Source of the DNA: Tritonibacter litoralis
Lineage (GTDB): Bacteria; Pseudomonadota; Alphaproteobacteria; Rhodobacterales; Rhodobacteraceae
Length of the DNA stretch: 64,000 nt
Direction of reading: 5' to 3'
NCBI RefSeq assembly: GCF_009496005.1
Contig: NZ_WIBF01000004.1
Coordinates: 124,001 to 188,000, forward strand
Both the position numbers and the translations under genes were made by a program. The notes under the pieces were generated by a model. It was not told where the DNA came from. It worked only from the letters and a program-made list of their open reading frames with translations, and did no database searches. Below are positions 1,605 through 5,283 of this stretch, one piece after another; the first letter of the stretch is position 1; each line of letters opens with the position of its first letter.

Positions 1605-2678
1605 ATGACCTGGCTGGCGCTTTGGGATCGGGCTTCGGGGTTTGTGCCGTTGAGTGATCCCGAGCAGTTGACCACCGAAGGTGACCGGCTGTTGGCACAG
1701 GGGTCGCTGATGGTGGAATTCCAACTGCCCGACGGGCCAAGCCCGCGTCCATTGCTTGCCTTCGCGCAATCTGGCATCTGGCCGCTTCGTTTGGCGCTGA
1801 CAGTATTGCCCAATGGCGCTGTTTCCTTTGTGCTTGATCAACTGGGGCAGGTGGCCCACCATGTGTTTGCGGGCTGTGACACATCGCGGATAGAGACACT
1901 GCGGTTGGTCTATGCCTGGGATGCGCCCTGTGGTTGGGGGCGGATCTCTCTGGAATGCCTCAGTACAGGTCGGATGCAGACACAGCCTGTTGCCAGGCCA
2001 AAGCCATGGCGGGTGGCAGATCTGTTGGCGGTTTTGCGTCCAAATAACGCTTGCAGGTCACGTCGTGAGGTGTCGCTACTAGGTCTTTCGGATCGACCGG
2101 AACCCATCGGTCCGCAGCCTGGGCTGCCCGGAGATCTGAAGGTCAGCACATCTGAGGGCGACCGCCCCATATGTGATCTGCGCCCCGGCGACAAAATCTT
2201 GACCGAAGATGGGCGAGACGTGCCTTTGATTGCCGCCGTCAGCCATAGGGTTCTTATGGCGGGGACGGCCCATCCCATTCAGCTGCGCGCGCCGTACCTT
2301 GGGGCCCGGCAAAACGTGACCCTAAGCGCCGCTCAAAGGCTTCTGGTCCACGGGGCTGAGGTCACGTATTTGTTTGGGACATCAGCCGCGTTGGTCCGCG
2401 CCGGCGATTTGCCAATGCCATTTGCGGTACAGGGTATTGCTGCTCCCAAAGTCGACCGTCTATGGCAATTGGTGCTGCCAATGGGTGAACCTTTCCAAGC
2501 CGCAGGGCTGTGGATACCCAGCCTGACCTTTGCCGCGCTGCGTCATGCGCCGGAGCAGATCGCGGCCAGCCTGGCTGCCAAACTGCCGACAAGCCAAATC
2601 AGGCGGCAGAACAGCGCGTCTTACCCCTGTTTGGGTGCCTTTGACGCAGAGACACTCTTGCAGGCGCGGGTCGCTTAA
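1605..2678 (+). CDS. Hint-like protein with degenerate catalytic residues
   Basis: A 357-residue protein whose ATG lies 3 bases after the stop of the preceding Hint gene. Residues 1-170 form a beta-rich region without a family I can name with confidence. Residues about 173-300 align with a Hint domain: the ICDLRPGDKILTEDG block corresponds to RRVEDLAVGDLVRTRD of its neighbour. An ungapped alignment from that block puts Gly173 where the neighbour has the nucleophile Cys335, and Gln244 (LSAAQRLL) where it has His406. Both residues needed for self-cleavage are thus missing, so this looks like a non-catalytic Hint fold. Whether it works as a partner of the upstream protein is inference. Confidence is high for a coding gene and for homology, low for function. 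Confidence 0.75.
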   Translation: MTWLALWDRASGFVPLSDPEQLTTEGDRLLAQGSLMVEFQLPDGPSPRPLLAFAQSGIWPLRLALTVLPNGAVSFVLDQLGQVAHHVFAGCDTSRIETLRLVYAWDAPCGWGRISLECLSTGRMQTQPVARPKPWRVADLLAVLRPNNACRSRREVSLLGLSDRPEPIGPQPGLPGDLKVSTSEGDRPICDLRPGDKILTEDGRDVPLIAAVSHRVLMAGTAHPIQLRAPYLGARQNVTLSAAQRLLVHGAEVTYLFGTSAALVRAGDLPMPFAVQGIAAPKVDRLWQLVLPMGEPFQAAGLWIPSLTFAALRHAPEQIAASLAAKLPTSQIRRQNSASYPCLGAFDAETLLQARVA

Positions 2679-2745
2679 TTTCTTGCTTGAACGCGCGCCT
2701 GCCCCTAATCATGCGCCGACATATTCTTTGTGAGAGAGAGCCTCC

Positions 2746-3801
2746 TTGACCCGAACGCGTGCATTTTTGTTTTTGGTGCTTCTGCATCTGGCAGGCGCAG
2801 CCTGGAGCCAATCTCTGATTGTGGACACCGTCACGCGCCCGCCGTTTTCGATGGTGGAAAACGGGCGTGATGCCGGGTTTTCCATGGATCTTGTCGCTGC
2901 ATTGTTGAAGCGGATGGACCAGCCCTTCGAAGTGCGCCGAAACGACAGTTTTGGCGAGATGCTTCTGAATGTAAGCGAAGGTGAAACGGATATGGCCGCG
3001 GCCAATATTTCGGTCACTTCAGCACGCGAAGTTCATATGGACTTTAGCCACCCGATTTTCGAAAGCGGTTTGCAAATCATGGTGAAAACCGAAGATTTGC
3101 GGCAACCTTCCCTGGTTCGGGCGCTGTTTTCCAAAGACTTGGCGATTGCTATCGGGGTCGCATTCCTGCTTTTGGCGGGCGGGGGCATGTTGATGTGGGC
3201 CGTCGAGCGGCGTGCGCAACCCTATTTTGACCGCCCCCTCAAAGAGGCCTGGTTCCCATCTTTTTGGTGGGCCCTCAATCTGGTGGTCAACGGCGGCTTT
3301 GAAGAGCGGGTCCCGCGCACCCCCGTGGGGCGCGTTTTTGGCGTGTTGTTGGTGATCTCATCCCTGTTTATTGTGTCGGTTTTTGTGGCCAAAATCACGG
3401 CCGTTATGACGGTCGAGGCCATCAGCGGCAGCGTGAATTCAGTCAATGACCTTTATGGCAAACGGGTGGGTACCCTGTCGGGGTCTACCGCGGCTGGATT
3501 TCTGGACCGAAGAGAGGTGGATTTCCGCGGTTTTGGGGATCTCCAAGAGCTACTCGCCGCCTTTGAACGCGACGACGTGCAGATCGTGGTCTTTGATGCA
3601 CCGGTGCTGAATTACTACACAAACCATTCCGGGCGCGGAATTGGTCAGACGGTGGGGCAGGTGTTTCTTCAGGAAAGCTACGGCATTGCATTGCCACAGG
3701 GCTCCCCTTTGAAAGAGGAGGTCAATCGGGTACTCTTGGAGCTGCGCGAAGACGGGACCTATGACCGGATCTATGCCAAATGGTTTGGGCGCATAAACTA
3801 A
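2746..3801 (+). CDS. GluR0-like ionotropic glutamate receptor homologue
   Basis: A 351-residue protein with the layout of prokaryotic glutamate-gated channels: signal peptide (1-22, ending AAWSQS), first half of a periplasmic binding domain (23-125), TM1 (131-153), a re-entrant pore loop (168-190), TM2 (194-222) and the second half of the binding domain (223-351, ending YDRIYAKWFG as in solute-binding family 3 proteins). The pore helix and post-filter part (SFWWA, VPRTPVGR) match K+ channels, but the filter position TVGYGD reads NGGFEE (182-187). It probably senses an amino acid or similar ligand in the periplasm; the ligand is unknown. The start is TTG after a GAGAGAG ribosome-binding stretch; no ATG fits the signal peptide. 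It is not beside ABC transporter genes, which argues against a simple binding protein. Confidence 0.8.
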   Translation: MTRTRAFLFLVLLHLAGAAWSQSLIVDTVTRPPFSMVENGRDAGFSMDLVAALLKRMDQPFEVRRNDSFGEMLLNVSEGETDMAAANISVTSAREVHMDFSHPIFESGLQIMVKTEDLRQPSLVRALFSKDLAIAIGVAFLLLAGGGMLMWAVERRAQPYFDRPLKEAWFPSFWWALNLVVNGGFEERVPRTPVGRVFGVLLVISSLFIVSVFVAKITAVMTVEAISGSVNSVNDLYGKRVGTLSGSTAAGFLDRREVDFRGFGDLQELLAAFERDDVQIVVFDAPVLNYYTNHSGRGIGQTVGQVFLQESYGIALPQGSPLKEEVNRVLLELREDGTYDRIYAKWFGRIN

Positions 3802-3813
3802 CTGGGCGAGCCG

Positions 3814-4164
3814 TTAGTGCAGCGTATCTGGTGTGTCATCGTCAAAATAGGGCGTCATCTGCGCCACGATAACCGCATTTTCATCCTTTGCCCGCTGCAT
3901 CAGTTCGCGTTCTTCCTGGCTGATGTCATGGCCCGCAGCTTCGCGTTCGGCCACCGAACCATATCCGGTCACGTCCAGCGGAGCCGTGTCTGCTTGTTTT
4001 AGGATCGCCACGGTCTCACGGACCGCTTCGGCTTCGTCAATACCTGACGCAAAGACCATCAACGCGGCCCCAGTTGCGTCTTTGGGTAGGCCATCCCCTT
4101 CCTTGCGCCCGATTTGGACCAGAAGGGTATAGATTTGTTGGCGGGATTTCTTTTTCTCGGACAT
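3814..4164 (-). CDS. Conserved hypothetical protein, 116 aa
   Basis: A small, soluble, charged protein with no signal peptide or membrane segment. It starts MSEKKKSRQQIYTLLVQIGR and has an acidic C-terminal half with an SQEERELMQRAKDENAVIVAQ helix. I do not recognise a named domain. The reading frame has codon use like its neighbours and a clear ATG at 4164, though the upstream ribosome-binding site is weak. It lies on the same strand as dapD, separated from it by a large inverted repeat, and is convergent with the channel gene, with only 12 bases between their ends. No function is proposed. Confidence 0.6.
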   Translation of the reverse strand: MSEKKKSRQQIYTLLVQIGRKEGDGLPKDATGAALMVFASGIDEAEAVRETVAILKQADTAPLDVTGYGSVAEREAAGHDISQEERELMQRAKDENAVIVAQMTPYFDDDTPDTLH

Positions 4165-4240
4165 GGGGCAAGCATGTGCCGGGAAAACCGGCTGGGGTCA
4201 AATGGTAAAACCGGGCAGTGTAACTTGCGCGGTCAGTTGA

Positions 4241-4353
4241 GGGGCTCTGCCCCCGCCGCTCACGCGGCTCCCCCGAAGTATTTATCAAAAAGGCGAAAAG
4301 GCAGCGCGTCTTTCATCTTTTTCCAAATACTTCGGGGTTTGGGGCAGAGCCCC
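4241..4353. repeat. Compound inverted repeat, intergenic
   Basis: Two 13-base blocks on the left recur as reverse complements on the right. GGGGCTCTGCCCC (4241-4253) pairs with GGGGCAGAGCCCC (4341-4353), and CCCCGAAGTATTT (4271-4283) pairs with AAATACTTCGGGG (4325-4337). The outer blocks are also hairpins by themselves (GGGGC stem, 3-base loop). The whole sits between dapD and the hypothetical gene at 3814. A partial further copy of the inner part is found at 27056-27080, so this is a dispersed intergenic element rather than a plain terminator, although it may also end dapD transcription. Confidence 0.8.
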
Positions 4354-4363
4354 AAGAAAAGAC

Positions 4364-5191
4364 TTAATCGCGCAGCAATTCGTTGATGCCGGTTTTGGAG
4401 CGGGTTTTCTCATCCACGCGTTTCACGATGACCGCGCAATAGAGGTTGATACCGTTTTTCGACGGCATGGAGCCTGCAACAACCACCGAATAGGGCGGTA
4501 CTTCGCCATAGAAGACTTCGCCTGTTTCACGGTCCACGATTTTGGTTGACTGGCCGATGAAAACACCCATGCCCAGAACCGAACCTTCGCGGATGATACA
4601 GCCTTCGACCACTTCGGAGCGCGCGCCGATGAAGCAATTGTCTTCAATGATGGTGGGGCCTGCCTGCATGGGTTCCAGAACGCCACCAATACCAACGCCG
4701 CCGGAGAGGTGCACGTTTTTGCCGATCTGAGCGCAGCTGCCGACGGTGGCCCAAGTGTCCACCATGGTGCCGGTGTCCACAAAGGCGCCGAGGTTCACAA
4801 AAGATGGCATCAGCACCACGCCCGGTGCGATATAGGCTGATTTGCGGACCACGGCATTTGGCACGGCGCGAAAACCTGCGTCTTTCCACTGGGTCTCGCC
4901 CCAGCCTTTGAACTTGCTGTCGACCTTGTCCCACCAGCCAGAGCCTTGGGCGCCACCGGACTGTTCTTCCATATCTTTGATGCGGAAGCCCAAAAGCACG
5001 GCTTTTTTGGCCCATTGGTTCACATGCCAATCGCCATTGTCCAGCTTTTCGGCCACGCGCAATGTGCCGCCGTCGAGCGCGTTCAGCGTGTCTTCGATGG
5101 CGTCGCGGGTTTCGCCCGTAGTGGCCGGAGTGATTGTGTCGCGCGCCTCCCAGGCGGCTTCGATTGCGGCTTCCAGCTGCGCATTGGACAT
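4364..5191 (-). CDS. dapD: 2,3,4,5-tetrahydropyridine-2,6-dicarboxylate N-succinyltransferase
   Basis: DapD transfers succinyl from succinyl-CoA to tetrahydrodipicolinate in the succinylase branch of lysine/diaminopimelate synthesis, in the cytoplasm. The 275-residue product has the family's usual length. It starts [18 protein letters not shown] and carries left-handed beta-helix hexapeptide repeats in the middle ([18 protein letters not shown], then [15 protein letters not shown] and the [15 protein letters not shown] block). The start at 5191 is preferred over an upstream in-frame codon because GGAGAACTCTT stands just before this ATG and the family begins here. It is a single gene followed by a compound inverted repeat; a GntR-family gene lies upstream on the same strand. 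Confidence 0.96.
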
Positions 5192-5283
5192 AAGAGTTCT
5201 CCAAGGATCAAAATTCTTCGGCGTTACATAGCGGGAAAATGCACAGAGGTCATGCCTCAATCTGCACGGGCAGATGGGGATAT

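Follow-up and report, generated by a model that had tools for sequence, protein, structure and literature searches.

The window, the 64,000-nucleotide stretch of Tritonibacter litoralis DNA that was analysed, contains a gene for a protein of the prokaryotic ionotropic glutamate receptor (iGluR) type in which the selectivity filter reads NGGFEE in place of TVGYGD (Table 1). What is new here is this fixed NGGFEE filter, the constraint upon it and its spread. On the strength of the sequence comparisons, the protein is probably a working homotetrameric, amino-acid-gated cation channel that is not selective for K+, a reading in which we place reasonable rather than firm confidence. In broader terms, a functional-looking non-K+ channel of the prokaryotic glutamate-receptor type with a changed ion choice is likely and a dead pore is unlikely.

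Table 1. Features of the receptor gene and its product (positions are those of the window).
Feature	Position	Strand	Basis
Gene, 351-aa prokaryotic iGluR-type protein, TTG start	2746..3801	+	ORF, Pfam, homologue search
Signal-peptide-like N-terminus, residues 1-21	2746..2808	+	Predicted helix 2-19; judged by eye
S1 half of ligand-binding domain, residues 24-115; R94 is the alpha-carboxyl Arg equivalent	2815..3090	+	
M1 helix, residues 130-154	3133..3207	+	AlphaFold2
P-loop lead-in and pore helix, residues 165-181, including SFWWALNLVV	3238..3288	+	AlphaFold2 helix 169-181; conservation
Filter residues 182-187, NGGFEE replacing TVGYGD	3289..3306	+	Alignments, conservation, pN/pS
M2 helix, residues 193-227, equivalent of iGluR M3	3322..3426	+	AlphaFold2, HMM alignment
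S2 half of ligand-binding domain, residues 228-348; D284 is the alpha-amino Asp equivalent	3427..3789	+	

An earlier, sequence-only reading had assigned the protein the layout of a prokaryotic iGluR, and this is borne out by Pfam, AlphaFold2 and fold matches, which reveal a domain of the SBP type split by a two-helix P-loop module. A signal-peptide-like N-terminus, S1, M1, the P-loop, M2 and S2 follow one another along the protein. Four Pfam families match above their cut-offs, namely SBP_bac_3 (residues 30-348, 3e-26), Lig_chan (residues 142-239, 4.8e-11), Lig_chan-Glu_bd (residues 24-116, 7e-9) and Ion_trans_2 (residues 166-222, 7e-5), and the same four are matched at E <= 0.01 in all 37 aligned orthologues (window protein included). 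The AlphaFold2 monomer model built with the 37 aligned orthologues (mean pLDDT 81.9, pTM 0.61) comprises an N-terminal helix, one half of a clamshell, M1, the pore helix, a coil at residues 182-192, M2 and the second clamshell half; confidence around the filter is modest, with a pLDDT of about 65 at residues 181-190. AMPA or kainate receptors account for all of the best 50 PDB fold matches listed, the comparisons with the PDB covering the best 60 rows (best 50 for folds) of longer lists.

The filter had been read as NGGFEE, with the K+ filter lost, and the family alignments show this to be right: the columns that hold residues 182-187 contain TVGYGD or TIGYGD in the K+-filter relatives. In the window protein the Thr, the Val, the Tyr (by Phe), the second Gly and the Asp are all replaced and the first Gly alone is kept. 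Neither the K+ selectivity filter of K+ channels nor the TVGYGD-type filter of the GluR0-like Group 1 receptors is therefore present. When 295 genomes of the same family were searched with the whole protein and no motif seed, 64 copies of at least 47% identity came to light in 63 of the genomes, and the filter could be read in every copy: 61 carry NGGFEE and one each NGSFEE, NGGFEV and SGGFGQ. The match to one copy (G447) is split in two, and a single TGA lies within its second part; nine copies, fetched later, entered the filter reading only. Close homologues with an intact TVGYG would have spoken for a local change; TVGYGD occurs in none of the 64 copies at this threshold among the 63 genomes, and the reading stands. 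Matches of at least 47% identity were found in three of 385 genomes of the class and four of 398 of the phylum (own genome included), all of them from the same family, and of 101 genomes of the order 19 contain a degenerate DNA pattern for VNGGFEER. Named orthologues come from Epibacterium, Tritonibacter, Leisingera, Phaeobacter and Ruegeria, which points to a host of the Roseobacter group; the orthologue of Epibacterium ulvae (L003) is 78% identical. A first homologue set, in which 80 of 80 sequences had NGGFEE, was dropped as evidence of conservation because one of its six search seeds was VVNGGFEE. A pattern search of viral contigs gave 70 matching stretches, none of which encodes a relative.

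Conservation and pN/pS were calculated for 53 clade sequences (52 and the window protein). Mean conservation is 98.4% in the filter columns, 84% in the segment 165-181 and 68% over residues 24-348, and the only six-residue segments that rank above the filter are those starting at residues 173 and 174 (pore helix) and 86 (S1). The pN/pS ratio, taken from uncorrected proportions averaged over pairs, is 0.017 for the filter (pS 0.87) against 0.456 for residues 24-348, a comparison that sets six residues beside far longer segments. Elsewhere the ratio is 0.238 (165-181), 0.324 (M2) and 0.423 (188-196), and it rises to 0.481 (S1), 0.483 (S2) and 0.546 (M1). As synonymous difference is plentiful, the constraint on the filter acts on the protein.

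Because few parts of the protein are under tighter constraint than the filter and the pore helix, the earlier suggestion of a one-time channel reduced to sensing fares poorly. Such a protein would have its pore shut for good and would signal by conformational change or merely hold its ligand; the disappearance of the K+ filter would suit it, as would the widely varying and in part gapped filters of distant relatives. A disused filter should drift, however, and a pore out of use is not expected to show constraint of this kind, so that a vestigial or decayed pore was rejected on conservation and on the filter pN/pS (0.017 versus 0.456). In addition, no cytoplasmic signalling domain is seen with Pfam or AlphaFold2, and the same-strand neighbours are each matched in at most 33 of 80 homologous loci (the window's seven neighbours, flanks of up to 4 kb). 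We consider a sensor-only protein unlikely. The conserved pore loop could alternatively serve assembly, not conduction.

The ligand side is likewise conserved. The nearest solved ligand domain by sequence among the matches listed is that of 2pyy, a bacterial iGluR homologue (142.5 bits with the single sequence, 200 bits with a profile), which we take to be the Nostoc punctiforme protein holding L-glutamate. By analogy with the nearest solved domains, the ligand may be guessed to be glutamate- or glutamine-like. An Arg in S1 and an Asp in S2 for the amino-acid backbone are present as R94 and D284, which are invariant in the 37 aligned orthologues; together with S247 and T248, presumably ligand-contacting positions, each is conserved to at least 98% in the 53 clade sequences. 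In the available part of PMC2950845, the conserved Arg and Asp are given as the glutamate contacts of prokaryotic iGluRs.

In the channel reading that we prefer, the periplasmic S1/S2 clamshell would bind an L-amino acid and the M2 helices would be pulled open as a result. Cations would then cross an inverted P-loop in which NGGFEE would offer no TVGYG carbonyl ladder; the Asn would lie near the loop tip, the two glycines could lend the loop flexibility and E186 and E187 would form a ring of Glu at the cytoplasmic mouth. The changed ion choice proposed from the sequence alone is probable because the K+ filter has been lost. Such a pore would be expected to discriminate weakly between Na+, K+ and, perhaps, Ca2+, in which case the ligand would depolarise the cell and not release K+.

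The two Glu residues could also be likened to the acidic ring of voltage-gated Ca2+ channels, which would make the pore selective for divalent cations (Ca2+). Both are retained in 62 of the 64 copies, the exceptions being NGGFEV and SGGFGQ. In AMPA receptors an acidic +4 site goes with weak selectivity, however, and a Ca2+-selective pore seems to us distinctly improbable, although a Ca2+ channel native to prokaryotes and having a novel filter has been published (PMC7041947, available in part).

By its match scores, the pore of the clade stands midway from K+ channels to AMPA receptors. With the single sequence, the best PDB match among those listed is KvAP (27.2 bits, 3.1e-5), against 18.9 bits (0.012) for GluA2. 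With a profile of 30 clade pores GluA2 comes top at 29.7 bits (4.6e-6), the best K+ channel being a KCNQ2 construct at 27.3 bits, and when the six filter columns are masked the AMPA receptors reach 27.2 bits versus 21.6 bits for the best listed K+ channel. The K+-channel-like flanks described in the sequence-only reading are thus borne out in part: KvAP leads GluA2 with the single sequence, whereas GluA2 or the AMPA receptors lead with the profile and the masked profile, the flanks still coming close to K+ channels. The KvAP match, together with the retention of the first filter Gly (G184) and of an aromatic residue at the Tyr position (F185), might be taken to mean that the channel is still K+-selective by way of an unusual filter. 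None of the 64 copies, however, has kept the Thr, Val or Asp of TVGYGD, and 63 have also lost the second Gly (SGGFGQ retains it); we regard continued K+ selectivity as very improbable. Decay or mis-assembly confined to this one genome can be dismissed as the source of NGGFEE, a local sequencing change being rejected because the filter is common to 61 of the 64 copies in 63 genomes.

As a control, a profile of the K+-filter relatives was compared with the PDB in the same way; unmasked, it matches K+ channels at 57.7 bits and has no iGluR in the best 60 of 509 matches. With the filter masked, it matches plant GLR3.4 at 47.8 bits, GluA2 at 38.5 bits and a K+ channel at 38.2 bits, scores that may be raised by the greater diversity of this profile (mean column identity of 56% versus 75% for the clade profile). 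The profiles hold 30 (A2) and 21 (A3) sequences, and the masked profiles (A4 and A5) the first 18 of each. Since the masked K+-filter relatives also match both kinds of channel, the mixed pore is a general property of prokaryotic receptors. As for the proposal that the protein may be an informative intermediate, the pore does look intermediate, but that the masked K+-filter relatives outscore the NGGFEE clade against eukaryotic receptors counts against the clade as a special intermediate.

In an HMM alignment to GluA2, N182 lines up with the Gln of the Q/R site and E186 with the +4 Asp, while E187 faces a gap; the register of the filter is uncertain by one residue, since alignment on the Pro that follows would shift G183 to the Q/R position and E187 to +4. 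The likeness to GluA2 lies in a polar residue at the Q/R position, an acidic residue at +4 and Pro-Arg after the filter. Unlike AMPA receptors, the window protein has neither an N-terminal domain nor M4, and it has two Glu residues where these have one acidic residue. Its M2 segment reads SVFVAKITAVMTVE, compared with SSYTANLAAFLTVE in GluA2, and the SYTANLAA segment of AMPA receptors, named in the accessible text of PMC3483616, corresponds to SVFVAKIT. A conserved Asp four residues past the Q/R/N site is described as critical for polyamine regulation in the part of PMC12226733 that is available. The likeness to KvAP lies in the pore helix and the post-filter segment, which align without gaps from Trp-Trp-Ala to Thr-Pro; in contrast to K+ channels, the window protein would be oppositely oriented and its filter is not TVGYG. 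It is conceivable, if rather doubtful, that in this clade a minimal two-helix receptor gave up its K+ filter and took on one of the AMPA/NMDA kind (Asn at Q/R/N, acidic +4), either as a surviving form of the pore inherited by eukaryotes or as a parallel invention; depolarising currents gated by amino acids would then occur in common marine bacteria.

The placement of the eukaryotic receptors was assessed in a 67-row tree built without the filter columns, from which L165, L089 and L097 (long branches), rows of fewer than 240 residues and near-copies were omitted. In the best tree the eukaryotic receptors, represented by GLR3.4 and one GluA2 construct only, both on long branches, are not joined to the NGGFEE clade. 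Holding these two eukaryotes with the 19-row NGGFEE clade costs 18.19 log units (AU p of 0.058); the cost is 5.49 (0.293) for a wider clade of 23 rows, 2.14 (0.426) for the main K+-filter clade and 0.77 (0.453) for three other K+-filter rows. Earlier AU tests, with p values of 0.00185 for the eukaryotes with the NGGFEE rows and 0.00427 for the eukaryotes with the main K+-filter rows, were withdrawn because the row sets left out nested rows and so cut through clades.

Outside the clade, the filters in the family alignments vary widely and some are gapped. NASFTI is found in two rows (39-41% identity), DGGP in a relative at 36% and a gapped TQ-AD in a relative at 39%, while TVGYGD is kept from 39% identity downwards, in relatives at 37-39%. 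When a tree was built by a quick method from only the ligand-binding halves (110 rows and 218 columns; near-copies thinned and two L198 pieces omitted for short coverage), 50 NGGFEE-like rows grouped with the SGGFGQ row as a single clade (SH-aLRT 97). A wider set adds the NASFTI, MGGFEK and DGGP rows (SH-aLRT 93, not starred). The K+-filter rows need five changes on this tree, two of which are forced by starred branches. Non-K+ filters of the NGGFEE kind thus cluster and K+ filters occur in more than one place; taken alone, the tree cannot tell gain of a filter from loss.

Several of the more distant sequences have unusual filters. The MGGFEK relative (L176, genome G887; 38% identity) has a look between the K+ type and NGGFEE, and its match contains one TAG. 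Seven rows (L160, L161, L190-L193 and L195) form a separate iGluR-like clade (SH-aLRT 100) with the filters SGRMSR, SGKMAR, SGRMTR, SGRAVN, SGKPSR, SGKVTR and TGKTSH; the basic residue in or near these filters is an unexpected charge for a cation channel. Four iGluR-like matches (L090, L102, L104 and L105) lie close together in one genome (G134, contig C64, 3951-9682), and the filter words LNEAGD, SENVVD and SANIDE in this cluster suggest a local expansion with filter change. A second Ion_trans_2 match above the cut-off in the same genome as the receptor (G000:C53:9189-9386; L001) lies in a 155-aa open frame and is a candidate ordinary K+ channel.

Proteins of this kind were already known, as Group 2 was described in 2010. 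In the available text of Ger et al. (2010; PMC2950845), 22 prokaryotic sequences of the S1-M1-P-M2-S2 layout are divided into Group 1, whose 12 members have a K+ filter, and Group 2, whose 10 members have unrecognised P regions; Group 2 is proposed there to consist of putative ion channels that respond to glutamate and to be nearer than Group 1 to the iGluRs of eukaryotes. As far as that text goes, the window protein has the iGluR topology and the P region unlike known filters by which Group 2 is defined, and it shares with Group 2 the S1-M1-P-M2-S2 layout, the unrecognised P region and the Arg and Asp contacts; the NGGFEE motif is absent from the same text. GluR0 of Synechocystis, a Group 1 receptor, has in common with the window protein a two-helix pore within an S1/S2 clamshell but carries the K+ filter that the NGGFEE clade lacks; the accessible parts of PMC13099474 and PMC12332018 also describe its topology as inverted relative to K+ channels and report that it lets K+-uptake-deficient Escherichia coli grow on low K+. 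Within open-licence PubMed Central, a scope that would miss subscription papers, we found no paper printing NGGFEE and none joining Rhodobacteraceae with 'ionotropic glutamate receptor'. The NGGFEE gene is present in a strain of Ruegeria pomeroyi (L078), the species from which we take the sequence YP_168531.1 to come. This accession is listed as a glutamine ABC transporter protein among the Group 2 sequences (PMC2950845, available in part), and the NGGFEE clade may already lie within Group 2.

It has long been asked how K+ selectivity was lost in glutamate receptors. A fixed non-K+ filter beside relatives with TVGYGD, NASFTI, MGGFEK and DGGP makes this loss directly testable. Should the channel of this clade conduct Na+ or Ca2+, it would provide amino-acid-gated depolarisation in common marine bacteria.

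The neighbourhood was surveyed for the window's own seven neighbours in 80 homologous loci with flanks of up to 4 kb, so that genes lying farther away are undercounted in the numbers that follow. Upstream on the + strand are two adjacent Hint-domain (Hint_2) proteins (36-1601 and 1605-2678), the first of which also carries a bacterial Ig domain (Pfam); they are matched in 33 and 26 of the 80 loci, respectively. A promoter scan of 2600-4400 found none against 0.7 expected, and a terminator scan of the same region found four against 3.0 expected. In all probability the receptor gene is transcribed by itself. The convergent gene that follows it (3814-4164, - strand) encodes 116 residues with no Pfam match at E <= 1; it adjoins the receptor gene in 79 of the 80 loci (72-86% identity), which indicates that the receptor locus is old and in place. 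The next gene (4364-5260, - strand), which reads as a putative dapD in translation, is found in 66 of the 80 loci.
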